Shown: piece by piece, positions 8,696-23,921 of the stretch | Position numbering within the stretch: the stretch's first letter is position 1 | Layout: each line of letters begins with the position of its first letter | Source of the DNA: a virus | DNA length: 24,076 nt | Reading direction: 5' to 3' (one strand) | IMG/VR virus record: IMGVR_UViG_3300029319_000505 | Coordinates: 1-24,076 of that record | The notes under the pieces: model-generated | Database searches by the model: none | Told to the model about the DNA's origin: nothing | Seen by the model: only the letters and a program-made list of their open reading frames with translations | Position numbers and translations under genes: made by a program

Positions 8696-9142
8696 CTAAC
8701 CGTGATAAATGTCTTTTGGATCTAAAATCGTGCCTAGCACCTCGTCGTCGTTCAGCATTCGCACTTCGCTGCCGAAAGCTGCTTTTTTATCGCCGTTCAA
8801 ACGAAAACGAGATCCAGCGTATCGAGCAAAAATCACCCAATCGCCTTCTTTGCACCATTCTCCGGTGGGGTATCGCTCTTTGTCTTTGTATGCAAGCGGC
8901 CCAGCCTTCAAAACGTAACCGACCTGTGTCTGTATCACGTCTTCTTCTAGGGTTTTGGGTGCAAGTAAAATACCGCCGTCACTCTTTTCCGGTGGGCGGA
9001 AGGGCATGATCAAGATGCGCCACCCCGTTGGTTGGGGTAAACGTTCAATAAGTTCTTTATCCATTAGGGACGGGTCTAATACCCGCTTTTCTTCTGCGAC
9101 GTAGCACTCAGACACGTCTAGTGCTTCATTCGTATCAGGCAT
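8696..9142 (-). CDS. GroES-like co-chaperonin (Cpn10 family)
   Basis: This 148-residue protein starts at ATG 9142 with AGGAAC, overlapping the preceding gene by eight bases. Residues 38-140 follow the GroES pattern: WRILIMPFRPPEKSDGGILL with the mobile-loop region at about 53-73, then VGYVLKAGP, and the hallmark KEGDWVIFARYAGSRF (99-113) in which bacterial GroES has GD.V.F....G. It is longer than cellular GroES (about 97 aa) by an N-terminal extension of some 37 residues. GroES forms a heptameric lid on GroEL; T4 gp31 is the classic phage counterpart needed for capsid folding. No GroEL gene is in the window, so it would work with host GroEL. The neighbouring scaffold and capsid genes fit that role. 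Confidence 0.82.
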   Translation of the reverse strand: MPDTNEALDVSECYVAEEKRVLDPSLMDKELIERLPQPTGWRILIMPFRPPEKSDGGILLAPKTLEEDVIQTQVGYVLKAGPLAYKDKERYPTGEWCKEGDWVIFARYAGSRFRLNGDKKAAFGSEVRMLNDDEVLGTILDPKDIYHG

Positions 9143-12022: not shown

Positions 12023-15000
12023 CTAAGCTCCAAAGCTTCCGATGCCTTGACTCAAGCCTACATCACCGCCGTATCGCATACCACCCACGCCTGTAATGTC
12101 GATCACCTCGGGTGGGACTTGTCGTTTCTTACCAGGACCGCCGCCACCGACAAGATTACAGATCGGATTGCCATTCACAAAAGACAACACGTACCCATTC
12201 GGGCATTGATACATCTGCGTCGGCTCAAGACCGTATGTGCCGGGGGCCGTGCTTTGCGTGCCGGTGTTGATGGTGCCTGAACCAGGCCCCGGCGCAGCAG
12301 AGCCCGCAGTGAACGCGTCAGGGTCTACATCGCCAGTTTCTGTTGTCCTGAACAACGACGGCATGGTTTGTTGAGCCACCGGCTTGTAAATCGGCATCGT
12401 GTAACCTGTAGCCCGCTCTTCCTCTGTGCCTTCAAAAGGCATGTAAGTGCGTTGGATTTCCATGCCCCGGCTGGTCGGGTATCCAAACGCAAAATTTTCT
12501 ACAGGATCTGGCACCGTTAGATTGATTCTGTCCAGCGCGGCTTGGAGCGAACCGATACCTCCACCGACGGGATCAAACACCTGTCCGTACGCACCACGGT
12601 CTATCGCTGTCGCCGTATCGGTAGGTGTCGTGAATAAATCCTCTGTGGCCGCTTGCGCGGTTTCAGCCGCTTGTAAAAGTTCACCTTGTGTCGGCGCATC
12701 GTAGATCGGATCGGGGTCAGGAGTCGCCGCAAGTTGCGCTTCCATCGCTAGACGATCCGCTTCTTGTTGCGCCGCAAGTTGTTCTGCTGCCTGGAGTTGA
12801 GCAGCAGCCTCTTGGTCAGCGGCTAACTGGGCAGCCTCTTGAGCAGCAAGTTGTTCTGCTGCCAACTGAGCGGCTGCCAGACGTTCTGCTTCAGCGGCTG
12901 CAAGCGCCTCTTGTTCTGCTGCCAGGGCTGCCGCCTCTTCCGCCGCCTGTCTTTGTGCCAAAGCCTCCAGTGCTGCTTGCTCATCTGCAAGCGCCTGTGC
13001 TGCTGCGGCCTCTGCGGCTGCTTGCTCGGCTGCAATACGCTGGGCTTCTTCTTCTGCCAACCGGATACGCTCGGCCTCTTCTGCTGCTTGTTGAGCGGCT
13101 AGTGTTTCTGCGGCAAGTCTTCGTGCTTCTTCTGCTGCTGCCTGCTCTTGCGCAATGCGGGCAGCTTCTTGCTGGGCAAGCAATTCTGCTGCAGCTTGTT
13201 CATTTGCGATCCGTATGGCTTCTTGTTCTGCTGCGATACGATCCGCTTCCTCTTGTGCAATTCTTATCTGTTCCGCTTCTTGAGCAGCGAGTGCGTCTGC
13301 GGCAGCTTGTTCGGCGGCTAGAATCTCTGCAGCAGACGGGCCTGCCACGACAGGTGTCGTTTCTACGGGAGGAAGATAGACCGGATCGGTCGCTACAGTT
13401 TGGACGGGCTCAGACGCCACAGGTGTCGTGGTTACTGGGGTAGTTGTCACCGGCGTTGTGGCTACCGGAGTCGTTGTCACCGGATCAGTCGTTGTCACAG
13501 GGTCGGTCGCTACGGGATCTGCAGCCACCGGGTCAGTCGCGACTGGGTCTGTGGCGACTGGGTCGGTCGCTACGGGATCGGTCGGGCGGGTGCCCCCTCG
13601 TCCCTGATAATTTGTTATTACGTTCGGCGACAATAATACGTCGGTGCCCTCTCTCAAAAACATGCCGGGTTCATTCGGTGTCTGCCCTGGTGCCGTTGCC
13701 AGAGCACCCATAGCCTGCGCTTGTTCTAACGCTCTTTGTTGTGCTATCAAATCTCGTGTCGCAGGCGTAGTTGGCGTAGCGACAGCTTGCTGTGCAGCCA
13801 ATGCCTCTGCAGCCGCAGGGGCGACGTACGCAGGTAGCTGCGTTGGGTCAATCTGCACGTTGGAGAAACCAAGCTCTGGGACGAAACGGCCCATGCCGCC
13901 GCCACGGAACATACCTACCGGTTGTTGTGTTTCACGTGAAACACGTGCCAGGGGTCCCTGTGTAAAGCCACGTAACAGGCCCGAGAGCCCTGACGAAATA
14001 ACTGGTTTTCTCATTTGGTTTACCTCGCCGCCTTGTGCGTAGTCTCTATCCGTAGGATAACCCGCAGCGGCTCTTAGCTGTTCGATTTCTCTCTCTTTCT
14101 GAGCCAGTTGTCTAGCGACCGCAACACGCGCTTTGGAATTAGGAAAATCATCCTGATCCAAAACCCCGCGTAGGTAATCTCTCCTTGGGATCAGATCTTC
14201 AGCGGGGTCTTTTGGCAGCGGTTTGGGAGGCCCCATGCCGGGTAGTTCCATTTGGGGGTTGTTCGGGTCGTCTATTGAAAACGAAGGCTCACTCTTTCTG
14301 CCCTCGCGCATTGAGTACACCAACCCGCTTTCCGGCAAGACCATTTGTTGAGTGTCCTCGGGGAAGACGCGCTGTAGTTCTTCGCCTGATAGCGTTTCTG
14401 GAAACCGGGTTAATTCACCAGACGGCGCTCGTACATATTCATCTTTCTTTACGCCTTCAAAACGTCGCTGTACGTTCCGAGCCTCAACCTCACCAGGGTT
14501 CCCTTCGTACATTTGAAACATTTGTGACTCGATGTCCTCAATGTCCTGTTTTTCTTTCAGGAGAGGTCTTAGTTCTTCGATCTGCTCGTCGAACGCCCCA
14601 GCAATTTTTTCTGCAAATTTTTCGTGATCTTTGACCCCAGCTTCTTTCAGTGCTTCATTAAGACTAATCATACGGCGATCAGATCCCGAGTAGCGAAACG
14701 CTTGGCCTCTATACTCGTCGTCTACAGCGTCAATCTGTTCTTGCGGACGACCCATCTCTCTGAGTTGTGCTTTGCGTTTTTCGATGGCGTCATTTAATTC
14801 TTGACGAGCGGTCTGTGCTTTGGAAAGAACGCCCTTTGCTTCTAGCTCTGCTTCTTCCGCACGTTCGCGCAAATACTCTTGAGTGAGATATTTGACACGT
14901 CTTAGTTCTGCTTCTGGCGCGTCTTGGAGAGCGTTAACCAACGGAGGACCGTCATCGGGAGTTGGTTTCGCTTGACCAATGGCTCGTTTTCCAAAATCTA

Positions 15001-16432
15001 AAACGGTCGAAAACATCGTCGGTTTCGGGGCCGCGTCGGTCGTAATTACAAGACTATCGAGTGTGTCTTCAATTCTTTCCTCTACGGCTTGCAAAGCATC
15101 TCTATTTTTTGTTTTGCGATCCGCAAAACCGGTTGGTTCAAACATGCCGGTGTTTGCCCCACCGTAAAGACCCTCTATGTCTTGTACAGCGTGCTGCACT
15201 TCATGCATCAACGTGCTCATCATGTCTTTACGGCCTTCGGGCGTATTTGGTACATCTGCTAGTTGAATGGTCTTTGTTTCGGGGTTGTAAGAACCTTTAA
15301 CAAAAAACGCCAACGGCGGGGTAGACTCGATTCTGATACTACGAAGCTGGGGGTATTCGTCAAAAAGTTCTGGAAAATCAATAATTTGCTCTAATACGGG
15401 TGAAGGAAATTTTTGTAGCCCCTTCGTGCCCGCCTTGTAGTCGTATCGCGTGAACCCGTACTTGTTTAGTTGTCCTTCATCTAGATCAAAAAACCCCGGT
15501 ATCGTTAAGTAGTCCTTATCATTGATTTGTCGGATTCTCATCCCTTGCATGGCAAGGAGGCGTTGCTCTGTTCTAGTATCCGGGTCTAATAGCTTCCCAA
15601 GCTCTACCTCGGGGTCCTCTGTGGCTCGGAAGGCTTGCTTGAAAGACACGTTGGTCATTGGTATTTCATAGCGAACCTTGTTGTCTAAACTAGAACGGTA
15701 GGCTTTGTAAGTGTTCGCGCCCGACTGCCTTTCCCAACCCTGCGCCGGGTCAAGCCCCGCTTCCTCAAGCATCTCCACCGTATCTTCAGCTTGCTTGCCA
15801 GACTTACCTTTACCTGAGCCAAAAATACCAAAACTGTTTTGGGGTACGTCGCTAACGGCTCTTCCTACGGCCAGAGGGCCTGTGGCTGCAAAAAAAGACT
15901 CAATACCAGAAAATGTTTCGCCAGTTTTTGGATCGACAGTTTCAATCCGACCACGTTCAAAAGCATCCGCGCCGCCGTACAACTGTCGTTTCATTTGTTC
16001 CGGTAGCCGTGAAACAGTGTCCGCCAACTGCGAGCGGGCTTCAGGACTGTCAATAAGCTCTTGTCCGTAGTCCACTAGAGAGCCGATACCGCGAACTATT
16101 GGGGCATATCCCAAACCAAACTCTGTTTTGCCGTACACGCCGGGAGTAACCGTGCGATCAACAACCTCTTCAAGTTGGTTTGTGACGGGGTTCAGTTGAG
16201 TTCGGGGCTCCCCAAACTCCGTGACCGGCGGCTGCAATACTTCGGTGCGGAATGGAGCTAGATAGCTAAGTACCTGAGTGGGTAACGTACCCTCTTCTTG
16301 AACGCCGGGAATCCCGTACGCAAACTCGCGCTCTACGGGCGCTGGCCGTTCAAACAACTCTCGATCTGCATCTTGTCGCGCCAAAGCACGCTCCAAATCC
16401 GCCAGCATCTCCGCTTGTGTACGTTCAGCCAT
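12023..16432 (-). CDS. Giant zincin-domain protein (polyvalent-type, 1469 aa)
   Basis: This frame of 1469 residues opens with an ATG overlapping the large-terminase stop by eight bases. Visible parts: residues 1-290, no clear domain; about 300-430, a zincin metallopeptidase core with FPELFDEYPQLRSIRI, a strand of the GSYNPETKTIQLAD type, and HEVQHAVQ at 410-417 (zinc ligands His410 and His414, catalytic Glu411); 647-657, GEVEARNVQRR, whose Glu probably supplies the third ligand; helical segment about 515-562; YAQGGEV at 798-804; Thr/Asp/Pro/Val repeats at about 950-1030; an Ala/Glu/Gln coiled coil at about 1035-1234; near the C-terminus a CPNGYVLSFVNGNPIC module (1410-1425) and MRYGGDV. The paired HExxH and GEVEARN motifs are those of the MPTase-PolyVal domain of phage polyvalent proteins. 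Possible roles are virion-delivered anti-host factor or internal maturation protease; neither is shown. Confidence 0.8.
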   Translation of the reverse strand: MAERTQAEMLADLERALARQDADRELFERPAPVEREFAYGIPGVQEEGTLPTQVLSYLAPFRTEVLQPPVTEFGEPRTQLNPVTNQLEEVVDRTVTPGVYGKTEFGLGYAPIVRGIGSLVDYGQELIDSPEARSQLADTVSRLPEQMKRQLYGGADAFERGRIETVDPKTGETFSGIESFFAATGPLAVGRAVSDVPQNSFGIFGSGKGKSGKQAEDTVEMLEEAGLDPAQGWERQSGANTYKAYRSSLDNKVRYEIPMTNVSFKQAFRATEDPEVELGKLLDPDTRTEQRLLAMQGMRIRQINDKDYLTIPGFFDLDEGQLNKYGFTRYDYKAGTKGLQKFPSPVLEQIIDFPELFDEYPQLRSIRIESTPPLAFFVKGSYNPETKTIQLADVPNTPEGRKDMMSTLMHEVQHAVQDIEGLYGGANTGMFEPTGFADRKTKNRDALQAVEERIEDTLDSLVITTDAAPKPTMFSTVLDFGKRAIGQAKPTPDDGPPLVNALQDAPEAELRRVKYLTQEYLRERAEEAELEAKGVLSKAQTARQELNDAIEKRKAQLREMGRPQEQIDAVDDEYRGQAFRYSGSDRRMISLNEALKEAGVKDHEKFAEKIAGAFDEQIEELRPLLKEKQDIEDIESQMFQMYEGNPGEVEARNVQRRFEGVKKDEYVRAPSGELTRFPETLSGEELQRVFPEDTQQMVLPESGLVYSMREGRKSEPSFSIDDPNNPQMELPGMGPPKPLPKDPAEDLIPRRDYLRGVLDQDDFPNSKARVAVARQLAQKEREIEQLRAAAGYPTDRDYAQGGEVNQMRKPVISSGLSGLLRGFTQGPLARVSRETQQPVGMFRGGGMGRFVPELGFSNVQIDPTQLPAYVAPAAAEALAAQQAVATPTTPATRDLIAQQRALEQAQAMGALATAPGQTPNEPGMFLREGTDVLLSPNVITNYQGRGGTRPTDPVATDPVATDPVATDPVAADPVATDPVTTTDPVTTTPVATTPVTTTPVTTTPVASEPVQTVATDPVYLPPVETTPVVAGPSAAEILAAEQAAADALAAQEAEQIRIAQEEADRIAAEQEAIRIANEQAAAELLAQQEAARIAQEQAAAEEARRLAAETLAAQQAAEEAERIRLAEEEAQRIAAEQAAAEAAAAQALADEQAALEALAQRQAAEEAAALAAEQEALAAAEAERLAAAQLAAEQLAAQEAAQLAADQEAAAQLQAAEQLAAQQEADRLAMEAQLAATPDPDPIYDAPTQGELLQAAETAQAATEDLFTTPTDTATAIDRGAYGQVFDPVGGGIGSLQAALDRINLTVPDPVENFAFGYPTSRGMEIQRTYMPFEGTEEERATGYTMPIYKPVAQQTMPSLFRTTETGDVDPDAFTAGSAAPGPGSGTINTGTQSTAPGTYGLEPTQMYQCPNGYVLSFVNGNPICNLVGGGGPGKKRQVPPEVIDITGVGGMRYGGDVGLSQGIGSFGA

Positions 16433-18873: not shown

Positions 18874-19030
18874 GGGTCACGGATCTTGGTTCGTTTTTAC
18901 TGTGAATTGTTTGCGTAAAACCTGCGCATGTACACGTGCTGTGTGCGCGGTGCCCGGTGCGCGAGGATCGGGCCAGTTGAAACGTGCTAAGGGCAGTAGT
19001 TTTGCCTCGATTGTCCGGGGGACCCGGAGC

Positions 19031-19148
19031 CAGGGGCCGGGGGCACTGGGTCACGTCCTGGAAGTCTTTTTTTAACTTCCAACTCCGGAAAGGTTGCACG
19101 ATTGCTTACGGATCGCGGACCAGGGGCCGGGGATCAGGGGCCGGGGAT
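19031..19148. repeat. CAGGGGCCGGGG repeats with G-quadruplex motif
   Basis: The 14-mer CAGGGGCCGGGGAT occurs twice in exact tandem (19121-19134, 19135-19148), and its first 12 bases occur again at 19031-19042. The tandem pair gives four G4 runs separated by 2, 4 and 2 bases (19123-19146), a textbook G-quadruplex pattern on the plus strand, the template for leftward transcription. Confidence 0.88.
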
Positions 19149-19348: not shown

Positions 19349-19374
19349 AAAAAAAGCCCGCACTATGGCGGGCT
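19349..19374 (-). terminator. Rho-independent terminator of the 19398-19832 gene
   Basis: The minus strand has a 7-bp G/C stem (AGCCCGC / GCGGGCT) and then a run of seven Ts. A second inverted repeat (TTAACCG/CGGTTAA, 19382-19397) abuts the gene's stop codon. The stem is the same as in the terminators at 19913 and 20708. Confidence 0.88.
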
Positions 19375-19397: not shown

Positions 19398-19832
19398 TTA
19401 GTCGAACCTCGCTATTTTCGTTGCGCCGTGACTGTCGCGAAGTCCCACAAAACCGTAGGGGTAAACAAACATTTCGACGTTAGTGCGTGACGGGTCCAGG
19501 CTTGTAAATGCGATGTATGGCTCCAGGTGCGGGTCATCATCATATTGGCTCACGTAGGTCCCCTGAGCGTTAACCTCGCCGTCTATTGGGTACGCCTGGA
19601 ACCCACCAAAACCATAAAGTTTATCCATTGTTTCAGCGATTGATTCGATATCGACAAACGGGTCTACCGACAACGCACGCTCAAAAAAGTCCGGAATGAT
19701 ACCGCACGCCTCTTCTAGCCACTGTTCTTTGTCGTCTTTGTCGTCGAAGTACCATCGGTCATAGGCTTTGCGCGGATCGTACTGCCAGCTTAGTAGCAGT
19801 TTAGCAGGTCGAATTTTTATCACTTTGTCCAT
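19398..19832 (-). CDS. Hypothetical protein in a stand-alone cassette (144 aa)
   Basis: This 144-residue acidic protein starts at ATG 19832, preceded by AGGAAAAAG. It is rich in Asp and aromatic residues (WQYDPRKAYDRWYFDDKDDKE, in part), with a Gly/Phe-rich middle (YGFGGFQAYPIDG) and a beta-rich end (VEMFVYPYGFVGLRD). No family recognised. It has its own promoter and 5' hairpin (19854-19907) and its own terminator, so it is an independent transcription unit. Small, acidic, separately expressed phage genes are often host-interaction or anti-defence factors, but nothing here shows that. Confidence 0.78.
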   Translation of the reverse strand: MDKVIKIRPAKLLLSWQYDPRKAYDRWYFDDKDDKEQWLEEACGIIPDFFERALSVDPFVDIESIAETMDKLYGFGGFQAYPIDGEVNAQGTYVSQYDDDPHLEPYIAFTSLDPSRTNVEMFVYPYGFVGLRDSHGATKIARFD

Positions 19833-19853
19833 TGTTTCTTTTTCCTATTGTTG

Positions 19854-19870
19854 CGCTGCGGTTTGCAGCG
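19854..19870 (-). promoter_or_regulatory. 5' leader hairpin (copy 1)
   Basis: A 6-bp perfect stem (CGCTGC/GCAGCG) with a 5-base loop lies just downstream of the -10 box, so it would sit at or near the 5' end of the transcript, before the ribosome site. Copy 2 is at 20651-20667 with the same stem and a changed loop. It may stabilise mRNA or bind a regulator. Confidence 0.7.
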
Positions 19871-19877
19871 TTTGCGA

Positions 19878-19907
19878 AGTATAAGAGTAAACGCATAAAA
19901 AGAACAA
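19878..19907 (-). promoter_or_regulatory. Sigma70-like promoter of the 19398-19832 gene (copy 1)
   Basis: On the minus strand TTGTTC (19902-19907) and TATACT (19878-19883) are 18 bp apart. The surrounding bases (GTATAAGAGTAA on the plus strand) are repeated in the second promoter at 20676-20705 with the same spacing, which supports function. Confidence 0.7.
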
Positions 19908-19912
19908 CCCAC

Positions 19913-19938
19913 AAAAAAGCCCGCACTATGGCGGGCTT
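19913..19938 (-). terminator. Rho-independent terminator of the 20632-19960 unit
   Basis: On the minus strand an 8-bp stem (AAGCCCGC/GCGGGCTT) with a 6-base loop ends in a T run. The stem and loop are nearly identical to the 19349 terminator. It lies 22 bp past the stop of the 19960 gene. Confidence 0.88.
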
Positions 19939-20191: not shown

Positions 20192-20632
20192 CTACCGAGT
20201 GAACCTAAATTCGCCGTTGTTGATAACCTCAGCAATTTTGTAGTCCAGATCGATATCGGCAACCGCTTCTTCGATAACCTCGCTGAAGTCGTAGTCTCTG
20301 ATAACTTCACAAACTGCGGTATCGAAGTAACTGTGCTGTGAAATATCGAAATCCTCTAATTGATCATGCACCGCATTGTCGACAATGAAATGGATCTTAT
20401 GCTCTATAATCGGCAGGATCGCCTCGCAAAGTTGTTCGTTGCGTTTTCTATTCTTTTCAAGCCAGTTTTCTTGTTGCTCAATTTTGTGTTGCGCTGTGCG
20501 AAGGCTTGCTTCGAGCTCTGCTATTTTTGCGTTCAGCGTTACAGTATCGCCCACCGTTATCACCGTTTCTTCTTCCGTAATGGGGTTTGCCAAACGGTTT
20601 CCGTCTTCATCAAAATATCTTTCATTTTCCAT
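20192..20632 (-). CDS. Hypothetical acidic coiled-coil protein (146 aa)
   Basis: This 146-residue protein starts at ATG 20632 with a weak GAGAT site. After a short acidic head (NERYFDEDGN) it has a coiled coil at about residues 30-70 (LNAKIAELEASLRTAQHKIE and following), then an acidic helical C-terminal half ending in a short basic tail. It is the first gene of a two-gene unit with its own promoter, 5' hairpin (20651-20705) and terminator at 19913. No family recognised. Confidence 0.78.
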   Translation of the reverse strand: MENERYFDEDGNRLANPITEEETVITVGDTVTLNAKIAELEASLRTAQHKIEQQENWLEKNRKRNEQLCEAILPIIEHKIHFIVDNAVHDQLEDFDISQHSYFDTAVCEVIRDYDFSEVIEEAVADIDLDYKIAEVINNGEFRFTR

Positions 20633-20650
20633 GTTTGTATCTCAGTTGTG

Positions 20651-20667
20651 CGCTGCGGGTTGCAGCG
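20651..20667 (-). promoter_or_regulatory. 5' leader hairpin (copy 2)
   Basis: Same 6-bp CGCTGC/GCAGCG stem as at 19854-19870, with a 5-base loop differing at one base, again between the -10 box and the gene start. Conservation of the stem in two unrelated genes' leaders is the main support. Confidence 0.7.
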
Positions 20668-20675
20668 TTGACGCA

Positions 20676-20705
20676 AGTATAAGAGTAACCGCATACGAAT
20701 CACAA
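20676..20705 (-). promoter_or_regulatory. Sigma70-like promoter of the 20632-19960 unit (copy 2)
   Basis: On the minus strand TTGTGA (20700-20705) and TATACT (20676-20681) are 18 bp apart, the same boxes, spacing and flanks as copy 1. It lies immediately beside the terminator at 20708, so one unit ends where the next begins. Confidence 0.7.
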
Positions 20706-20707
20706 GC

Positions 20708-20734
20708 AAAAAAAAGCCCGCTCAAGGCGGGCTT
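20708..20734 (-). terminator. Rho-independent terminator of the DUF932-like gene
   Basis: On the minus strand an 8-bp stem (AAGCCCGC/GCGGGCTT) with a 5-base loop is followed by a run of eight Ts. The stem is shared with the terminators at 19349 and 19913; the loop differs. It lies 21 bp past the stop of the 20755 gene. Confidence 0.88.
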
Positions 20735-20754
20735 GTGTTGGTGGGTGGGTAGAT

Positions 20755-21980: not shown

Positions 21981-22718
21981 TTAGGCGGTCACGCTCGCAA
22001 TCAAATTGGCATCGACCACGAAGCCGGTTGTGTCGTTTTTGGCGGGGCCTTTGGCTTTAAGACCGACCACTACAGGCCCGGCCAGGGCGTTCAATATGTC
22101 CGATCCATCGCCGTCGATAACCGGGCGGCCTCGGTATTCGGTCGGCATTCCATTTTTAAAAACCACAGCAATCGGCGCGTCGGTTTTCTCAGCACGCTCG
22201 ACTTGTTTAGCATATTGCGGTCGGTCGCTGTAGCTGAATATCAAATGATAGTTAGAGGGCGTTTTGCCAAGTCGCTCGGTAAGCTTTGTGTAGTCTAAGA
22301 AAAACAACTCCGGGAATGCTTGCGGTATACCGTGCCGCTCCCACTGAATATCCGACAATACATTTAACCGCACGACGCCCTGCACGCCCTGCTTGCAGCA
22401 TAGTTTTGAAAAATTAGTTAGTTCCCGGCGTAATTGATCCAGAAAGCCGGGTTGATCAGAATGCCAAAAATCGGTTTTAGCTTGTCGGGCCTTGTTGATA
22501 GATCCAAACACGGCGGCCAAACCAGATTCTTTTAAGCAGGGTTTCATACACCCGGCGGCTTTGCTGCCAGGGCATAACGTGTCATTCGGGAGCAGGCTTA
22601 AGGAGGCCAGTCGCACGGGGCCTAAGCTGGTCTCAAACGCTGCCGTTTTCGCTACTTTGGTGTTGCCGTTCGTCGTGTCCGTATCTAAAAGTTTCTTTAT
22701 CGTTGTCATTATTCGCAT
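21981..22718 (-). CDS. GP88-family phage protein
   Basis: This 245-residue protein (242 if it starts at the second ATG, 22709) resembles the phage gene-product-88 family named after mycobacteriophage genes. Features: LLPNDTLCPG with Cys49, Cys57 and Cys61 (CPG...C...C), Cys107-Cys108, then VVRLNVLSDIQWE, a FFLDYTKLTERLGKTPSNYH segment, YSDRPQ, IDGDGSDI and a C-terminal VVVGLKAKGPAKNDTTGFV. The Cys set could bind metal or an Fe-S cluster, which is inference; no activity is established for the family. It overlaps the preceding small gene by 77-86 bp. Confidence 0.78.
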   Translation of the reverse strand: MRIMTTIKKLLDTDTTNGNTKVAKTAAFETSLGPVRLASLSLLPNDTLCPGSKAAGCMKPCLKESGLAAVFGSINKARQAKTDFWHSDQPGFLDQLRRELTNFSKLCCKQGVQGVVRLNVLSDIQWERHGIPQAFPELFFLDYTKLTERLGKTPSNYHLIFSYSDRPQYAKQVERAEKTDAPIAVVFKNGMPTEYRGRPVIDGDGSDILNALAGPVVVGLKAKGPAKNDTTGFVVDANLIASVTA

Positions 22719-22875: not shown

Positions 22876-22910
22876 TACCTACTTCAGTGTTTTCGTTACC
22901 AGTGGAAACG

Positions 22911-22938
22911 CTAACACTATGCAAACGTCCGATGTCAA
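22911..22938 (-). promoter_or_regulatory. Possible promoter for the GP88-like operon
   Basis: On the minus strand a perfect TTGACA (22933-22938) is followed after 16 bp by TGTTAG (22911-22916), about 35 bp before the start at 22875. The -10 box is weak. It lies within the inverted TAACACTA repeat, which could be an operator. Confidence 0.4.
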
Positions 22939-23064
22939 GGACTAATCCCATACATTCGTTAATCGCCTTAGTGTTATAGACTTTTCCCAGCAATTTTATT
23001 TTTTTTTATAAAAACTTTTTTTGAGGCCCTATAACCCACGTCCCTTTTTTTTGATTTTTGTCCC

Positions 23065-23100
23065 ACCACTGCAAAACAGTGGTACGGGCAGTGGTACGGC
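23065..23100. repeat. Hairpin and tandem CAGTGGTACGG repeats
   Basis: ACCACTG/CAGTGGT forms a 7-bp stem with loop CAAAA (23065-23083). Its right arm begins the first of two tandem 12-bp units, CAGTGGTACGGG and CAGTGGTACGGC (23077-23100). No T-run follows on either strand, so this is not a standard terminator. Confidence 0.82.
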
Positions 23101-23135
23101 TGAAAGCCTTATGCGACAAGGGCTAGAGCCGATCT

Positions 23136-23158
23136 GTACCGCCGTACCGGCTGTACCG
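23136..23158. repeat. Three GTACCG iterons
   Basis: GTACCG occurs at 23136, 23144 and 23153 (8- and 9-bp spacing), in inverted orientation to the GGTACGG within the tandem repeats 40 bp to the left. The cluster is followed by an AT-rich stretch with the inverted repeat TTTTGAAAA/TTTTCAAAA (23162-23187). Confidence 0.75.
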
Positions 23159-23288
23159 GCATTTTGAAAATTATTTTTTTTTCAAAAAAGTATTTTGCTC
23201 AGAAAACTCTATATAGAAAGCCGTTTTTTGTCCCCCGAGCCGTGACCCGTGCTACGTGAAGTAACACTCGTTACCTTTCGTAACAAAC

Positions 23289-23561
23289 CTAGCTCTTCCA
23301 CGGGTATTCGGGAAACTCTTCCCGCATTCGGTCGTCGATAAAGTCGTAGTAAATCTGCTCTTCTGGGTTGAGACCTATCTCCATCGCTTCTTTGTGTATG
23401 AAGAACGCCGCCATGGTCATCGTATTGTGCTGCTCCCCACTGCCACCATACCAGCGGTTACGGCGCTGCCACCTACTAGGTTTGCTCCAAGGCATAGGCC
23501 CGGTTTTGAAACTGATCCACCGATACTTTATCAACCACAACTTTTGCTTAAACCACTTCAT
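23289..23561 (-). CDS. Small scaffold-related protein (90 aa)
   Basis: This 90-residue protein starts at ATG 23561 with CAGGAG upstream. The first 35 residues are basic and Trp-rich (seven Trp in the whole protein). Residues 35-86 carry the same ordered motifs as scaffold residues 195-245: RWYGG for TWFGQ, MTMAAFFIHKE for MTFAAFGIHKE, YYDFID for YYDALD, and RMREEFP for AMRDAFP. It lacks the acidic and coiled-coil parts of the scaffold. It is the first leftward gene after the divergent promoter, far from the head operon. A role modulating scaffold or using the same binding partner is inference. Confidence 0.8.
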   Translation of the reverse strand: MKWFKQKLWLIKYRWISFKTGPMPWSKPSRWQRRNRWYGGSGEQHNTMTMAAFFIHKEAMEIGLNPEEQIYYDFIDDRMREEFPEYPWKS

Positions 23562-23585
23562 CTATTTCTCCTGGTTCAAGAGCCA

Positions 23586-23614
23586 AGAATAAAGAGGCTT
23601 GCATCTGTATGCAA
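23586..23614 (-). promoter_or_regulatory. Leftward promoter of the divergent pair
   Basis: On the minus strand TTGCAT (23609-23614) and TATTCT (23586-23591) are exactly 17 bp apart, about 25 bp before the 23561 start. The -35 is one arm of the palindrome shared with the rightward promoter. Confidence 0.65.
23599..23614. promoter_or_regulatory. Palindromic operator overlapping both -35 boxes
   Basis: TTGCATCTGTATGCAA is a perfect 6-bp inverted repeat with a 4-base centre. Each arm is the -35 box of one of two divergent promoters, so a dimeric regulator bound here could block or activate both. Confidence 0.7.
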
Positions 23615-23627
23615 CATCCCGTAATCT
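23599..23627 (+). promoter_or_regulatory. Rightward promoter of the divergent pair
   Basis: TTGCAT (23599-23604) and TAATCT (23622-23627) are 17 bp apart on the plus strand, 28 bp before the 23655 start, which has GGAG eight bases upstream. Confidence 0.65.
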
Positions 23628-23654
23628 CGCTTACCCTTTAACGGAGAAATGTGA

Positions 23655-23921
23655 ATGAAAAAACAATTAGATTCCCAAGAACGTGACCAAGCAGCCTATC
23701 GCGCTGCTTTACGGTTGTCCGCTATTTCGAAGTCGGAAAAAGAACGCGAGTTGTTCGAAGCGGCTGCGGACGAATTGGCCGACATCATTGGCCTGAGTGA
23801 GGCAATGCCGATACTTGAAGAAGAACTCGACTTCTTACGTGCCGAGCGCCGTAAACTGCAAGCCGAGGTCGTGCGTCTTGAACTAGCCGCGGAAATGACA
23901 ACTTATGAATCGTTGAAGTGA
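23655..23921 (+). CDS. Small coiled-coil protein, first rightward gene (88 aa)
   Basis: This 88-residue protein starts at ATG 23655 with GGAG eight bases upstream. It is almost entirely helical and Glu/Ala/Leu/Arg-rich; the C-terminal half (EEELDFLRAERRKLQAEVVR) has heptad spacing typical of a coiled coil. No DNA-binding or catalytic motif is seen. It is the first gene of the rightward transcript driven by the divergent promoter. A regulatory or assembly partner is possible, but nothing identifies it. Confidence 0.8.
   Translation: MKKQLDSQERDQAAYRAALRLSAISKSEKERELFEAAADELADIIGLSEAMPILEEELDFLRAERRKLQAEVVRLELAAEMTTYESLK

Follow-up and report, generated by a model that had tools for sequence, protein, structure and literature searches.

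Organization of the locus

The window analysed here, by which we mean the whole stretch of DNA under study, measures 24,076 bases and is a virus contig (IMGVR_UViG_3300029319_000505), probably a fragment. Its closest named relatives, as judged by the large terminase (63-67% identity), are phage 023Pt_psg01, Pelagibacter phage HTVC027P and phage DSL-LC04. The head and packaging genes are read leftward; they start at about 18.8 kb and extend to the left end of the window. Between portal and large terminase lies a 1469-aa ORF (12023-16432, minus strand) with a TDPVATDPVA repeat run and long stretches rich in alanine, glutamine and glutamate, and short imperfect G+C-rich repeats (GGACCCGGAGCCAGGGGCCGGGG and similar) are found at 19019-19146, between the small terminase gene and a 144-aa gene. 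A GP88-like gene occupies 21981-22718 and is followed by a conserved noncoding region of 380 bp (22906-23285), a 90-aa ORF on the minus strand (23289-23561) and, facing away from it, an 88-aa ORF on the plus strand (23655-23921) that belongs to a rightward operon of small ORFs. Both ORFs have a good ribosome site, AGGAGAAATAG-ATG for the leftward and GGAGAAATGTGA-ATG for the rightward one, as the initial annotation had stated.

The site of interest lies between these two ORFs. At 23599-23614, the sequence TTGCATCTGTATGCAA forms an inverted repeat, present once in exact form in the window, whose arms TTGCAT and ATGCAA stand 10 bp, or one helical turn, apart from centre to centre. It had been described as a 16-bp palindrome carrying TTGCAT on each strand; the arms are as described, but the repeat is a 6+4+6 dyad with a non-palindromic centre, CTGT. 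The left arm would be the -35 element of a rightward promoter and the right arm that of a leftward one. A -10-like hexamer is indeed found exactly 17 bp from each: TAATCT at 23622-23627 (plus strand), with a predicted start near 23633-23634, and TATTCT at 23586-23591 (minus strand; AGAATA on the plus strand), with a predicted start near 23579. The two -35 elements are thus back to back, and the predicted starts are some 55 bp apart. The remainder of what proved to be a conserved block (23615-23636, plus strand) consists of CATCC in the rightward spacer and of TCGCTTACCC, which spans the end of the -10 element, the start and the first transcribed bases of the rightward promoter.

Scored by general promoter criteria, the two sites are weak as consensus sigma70 promoters. 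TTGCAT matches TTGACA at 3 of 6 positions, and TAATCT and TATTCT match TATAAT at 3 and 4 of 6, respectively. With a sigma70 matrix of approximate E. coli frequencies, the rightward site ranked 791st and the leftward site 180th of the 240,460 placements scored in the window, the best being TTGTGA-18-TATACT at 20705-20676 (minus strand). Neither site has an overall consensus score above background, neither was picked up by a consensus promoter scan of the window, and nothing in the promoter score alone singles out the pair. Of 200 dinucleotide shuffles made from the window, 21% contained one or more 6-4-6 repeats with TTG arms; none contained such a repeat flanked on each side by TA...T at 16-18 bp, in a test of the double geometry that was designed post hoc, after the site had been seen.

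Conservation of the rightward promoter

A search pattern requiring the palindrome and CATCC matched 11 viral contigs, of which ten proved to be true relatives, and a pattern blind to the palindrome (TCGCTTACCC..GGAGAA..GTGA) recovered the same ten plus three more (L042-L044), giving 13 viral contigs. They belong to a family of uncultured phages with kinship to phages of the ocean, and the element they share with the window spans some 40 bases. The layout of a sigma70-type promoter, with TTG at -35 and TA...T at -10 separated by 16-18 bp, is present in the window and in 13/13 relatives: in every one the stretch 28 bases upstream opens with TTG, and the spacing is always 17 bp. The -35 element is TTGCAT in all except L042 (TTGCGC), and the -10 element varies among the 14 sequences only at positions 3-5 (TAATCT, TACTCT, TACTGT, TAAAGT). 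Changes in the two hexamers are confined to the inner -10 positions and to -35 positions 5-6, where changes are tolerated in sigma70 promoters. As TTG, the 17-bp spacing and TA...T are kept in all 13 relatives, the promoter-like function that had been proposed for the rightward half, as promoter of the small-ORF operon, can be regarded as well supported by this pattern of conservation.

Other parts of the block are kept more strictly than a promoter of this class would require. CATCC is invariant in 13 distinct sequences and fixed in all relatives of the set, more strictly than the arms; TCGCTTACCC and CGCTTACCC belonged to the search anchor, so that their conservation is not independent evidence. 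Since conservation of CATCC and TCGCTTACCC exceeds sigma70 needs, a different polymerase or a regulator may read the block.

There is one block per contig, and in the relatives it precedes different first genes and follows different left neighbours, for which reason we treat it as a unit of its own. A protein-anchored search for the 88-aa family gave 12 loci, 11 of them on contigs of the block-bearing set; the twelfth locus (L069) is on a contig that begins 284 bp upstream, within a different ORF, and no block is seen in that stretch. Searching for the palindrome with CATCC in bacterial genomes gave 20 matches, all in unrelated organisms, which is about the chance expectation for 17 fixed bases in that collection. 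In viral contigs, the palindrome with TANNCT matched beyond the family without the rest of the block, mostly in copies of one unrelated conserved stretch. Neither the block nor the noncoding region 22906-23285 had a match among named phages, and a specific search of HTVC027P, 023Pt_psg01 and DSL-LC04 found no copy of the block or its dyad, nor of the noncoding region. According to the infection transcriptome of HTVC027P, none of its early genes has a known function; promoters are not mentioned there (PMC12753301).

The dyad as a candidate operator

The arms of the dyad are exact in 10/13 relatives, carry one mismatch in two (L043 and L044, with ATGCGA as right arm) and are lost in one (L042), and the exact dyad occurs once per contig wherever it is present. 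The arms are mostly constant and the 4-bp centre varies (CTGT, TGAT, CCGT, TGGT, CTTT), a pattern as would be left by the two half-sites of a dimer, one helical turn apart. The centre of the dyad lies near -27 of the rightward promoter, over the -35 element and the spacer, a position typical of a repressor. From this arrangement, a dimeric regulator acting on the dyad is a plausible, still tentative candidate. No match to a DNA-binding family was obtained among the neighbouring genes tested. The confident, all-helical model of the 88-aa protein had no significant structural match, and the model of the 90-aa protein was of low confidence and was set aside. The dyad is not essential, since L042 keeps the promoter without the palindrome and the right arm is imperfect in L043 and L044. 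In L042, a different short palindrome, CTTGCGCAAG, is found at the -35 element (8816-8845), and the block directly adjoins the noncoding region, with no gene between.

The divergent gene

The leftward 90-aa gene, which matches phrog_28737 (unknown function), is present in 3/13 relatives, at 69-70% identity to that of the window: L013 (the same contig as L001), L007 and L008. The last two are alike here and count as one, leaving two distinct relatives and, with the window, three divergent lineages. All three have a minus-strand TANNCT at 17 bp (TATTCT, TACTCT and TATCCT), and all three keep the dyad. The ten contigs without the gene have no minus-strand TA...T at 16, 17 or 18 bp; their left neighbour is co-directional in nine, and in L042 there is no gene at that place. 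The idea of two divergent promoters with both spacings preserved therefore holds in part: the rightward spacing is general and the arms largely so, but the leftward -10-like hexamer accompanies the 90-aa gene in every relative that has it and is found in none without it. Within these three lineages, to which the support is limited, a leftward promoter for the 90-aa gene is likely, if not strongly so, and the gene probably uses the second arm as its -35 element.

Most non-divergent relatives also keep the dyad, both arms being exact in 7/10. Because of this, service to a pair of divergent promoters is not what the palindrome is there for, and the proposal that its symmetry makes two promoters compete for polymerase is not supported. 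The divergent gene rather has the look of an insertion, acquired or shed at a site that was already there.

Where the leftward and rightward programmes divide

The initial annotation had seen in the palindrome a possible decision point between the leftward packaging and head genes and the rightward programme. The gene arrangement speaks against this. The leftward unit at the palindrome is the single 90-aa gene, with its stop at 23289, beyond which the noncoding region begins. Farther minus-strand terminators and promoters intervene between the block and the packaging genes, several terminator-promoter cassettes being passed before about 18.8 kb, so that packaging transcription need not start at 23579 and probably does not. 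What divides the two programmes is the noncoding region 22906-23285, which has the leftward GP88 operon on one side and the operon of small rightward ORFs on the other. This region is 71-91% identical in 11 relatives, a conservation at least equal to that of the neighbouring genes, and is kept whatever separates it from the block, which lies to its right by 39 bp (L042) to 1656 bp (L013), either inside the rightward operon or at its head. It is thus the likely divergence point of the two operons.

The region has long T tracts, GTACCG/GGTACGG repeats (23081-23158) and fixed TGTTATAG...CTATAAC arms, and it could be the seat of the main promoters or of a replication origin. A similar promoter-like element occurs in it on both strands, as TTGCTGGGAAAAGTCTATAAC leftward (22973-22993, minus strand) and TTGCTCAGAAAACTCTATATA rightward (23195-23215, plus strand), a pair that is perhaps a better candidate for divergent promoters than the palindrome. 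An Rfam search gave sub-threshold matches only, and the consensus RNA fold of the region had little covariation, so no structured RNA is claimed.

Terminators and comparison with known systems

In five contigs (L005, L006, L010, L012 and L014), a terminator-like stem follows the co-directional left gene, with some 6 bases between the end of its T run and TTGCAT. The window itself has no terminator directly upstream of the block. On its left side, terminator-promoter cassettes are repeated at 20625-20735 and 19830-19937 (both minus strand), each made up of a GCCCGC stem with a T run, TTGTKM-18-TATACT and a leader hairpin, CGCTGC-5 nt-GCAGCG, which shows a compensatory change in L015 (CGCTAC/GTAGCG); a terminator alone is found at 19350-19374.

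Such units recall the PeSL promoter-terminator motifs of T4-type phages, reportedly the subject of work by Arbiol in 2010 and Comeau in 2014. By this analogy, the leftward cassettes may be called PeSL-like; their phage is not T4-type. In a PeSL, a promoter comes immediately after a terminator, between small genes of T4-type phages that can be exchanged (PMC4503421, PMC4177764). The block resembles it in 5/14 contigs, where promoter and stem-loop terminator share one intergenic unit, but differs in having a terminator in a minority only and in its additional palindrome. PeSLs recur many times within one genome, at shuffled loci; as the block is single-copy and its phage is not T4-type, we did not file it as one.

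With host-sigma70 phage early promoters, the block shares -35 and -10-like hexamers, a 17-bp spacing and a place upstream of a small variable gene cluster; unlike them, it matches the consensus poorly, and the conserved sequence in its spacer and beyond its -10 element is of unusual length. In bidirectional promoters as defined by Warman et al. (PMC10268837, PMC12825309), sequence symmetry likewise gives transcription signals on both strands, but the -10 elements overlap and the starts are 7-25 bp apart. With back-to-back -35 elements and widely separated predicted starts, the present site was ruled out as a member of that class. Divergent promoters around one operator are familiar from regulator-target gene pairs and from temperate phage switches, with a dimeric regulator that is often encoded adjacent to them. 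Here too a dyad lies between two divergent genes; however, neither neighbour resembles a known regulator, and the divergence is found in a minority of the relatives.

Weighing the alternatives

The symmetry itself may be accidental: an unknown factor or feature of the polymerase would require TATGCAACATCC in the spacer, the right arm would mirror the -35 element by chance, and no dimer would be involved. The relatives in which the palindrome is lost (L042) or imperfect (L043 and L044) and the rest of the block is kept fit this account, as does the stricter conservation of CATCC, which lies outside the dyad. Yet arms that stay exact in ten relatives around a freely varying centre, and a centre-to-centre distance that suits a dimer, speak against it, and we hold this explanation to be unlikely, if worth serious attention. 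If, on the other hand, the palindrome acted as an RNA hairpin in read-through transcripts, as attenuator or processing site, nothing conserved just upstream would promote transcription through it, and L042 could not form it; the two arms could base-pair as RNA, in L043 and L044 with the help of a G-U pair, and the leftward cassettes of the same phages do carry a 5' leader hairpin with a compensatory change, but such a role seems very improbable.

The block could also serve mainly as a junction for recombination, where a terminator-promoter cassette is retained because it supplies homology for the shuffling of small genes, much like the PeSL of T4-type phages. The exchange of genes on both sides, the terminator that abuts the block in five contigs and the repeated cassettes on the left side of the same genomes all agree with this. 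Against it, the block is single-copy, and its -10 changes track the tolerance of a promoter rather than plain sequence homology, which makes this role improbable as the main one. Least credible is the symmetric switch, in which divergent promoters would have evolved so that polymerase competition or a shared regulator decides between packaging and head genes and the rightward programme. Its exact geometry in both directions, absent from the shuffles and preserved in all three divergent lineages, has to be set against the exact arms of relatives lacking that gene, a leftward unit of one gene, packaging genes beyond other terminators and promoters, and a divergence region that lies elsewhere, at 22906-23285.

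Proposed function

We consider it reasonably probable, on the comparative evidence, that the site is a rightward promoter, conserved in the family and overlapped by an operator-like dyad, which adjoins a terminator in some relatives and now and then also serves a divergent gene. Its core would be TTGC[A/G][T/C], 17 bp, TA[A/C][T/A][C/G]T, CGCTTACCC and a GGAGAA ribosome site, and it would drive a mosaic operon of small unknown genes. The host RNA polymerase, assumed to carry sigma70, probably transcribes it, despite the poor sigma70 match and with partial contigs to judge from. From the observed sequence, geometry, conservation pattern and gene contexts, we infer transcription in both directions and the binding near -27 of a dimer, which would most likely repress or otherwise modulate the promoter. 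In some relatives, a terminator directly upstream would make of it a terminator-promoter unit between exchangeable genes, and in three lineages, that of the window among them, one gene facing the opposite way would probably take its -35 element from the second arm.

One might speculate further, at the price of a rather improbable reading, that a dimeric regulator of phage or host origin acts on TTGCAT-N4-ATGCAA to time the small-gene operon, and that inserted genes can connect to whichever side of the operator is still free. If so, an inserted gene would gain a ready-made -35 element and need only an added -10, and a palindromic operator would be a landing place for new divergent genes. The element itself is modest and ordinary, of a known kind rather than a new kind of switch. 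As a conserved single-copy promoter with an operator-like dyad, it offers a concrete site for transcription mapping in this group of phages, and an example of how a divergent gene may exploit one arm of an existing dyad.
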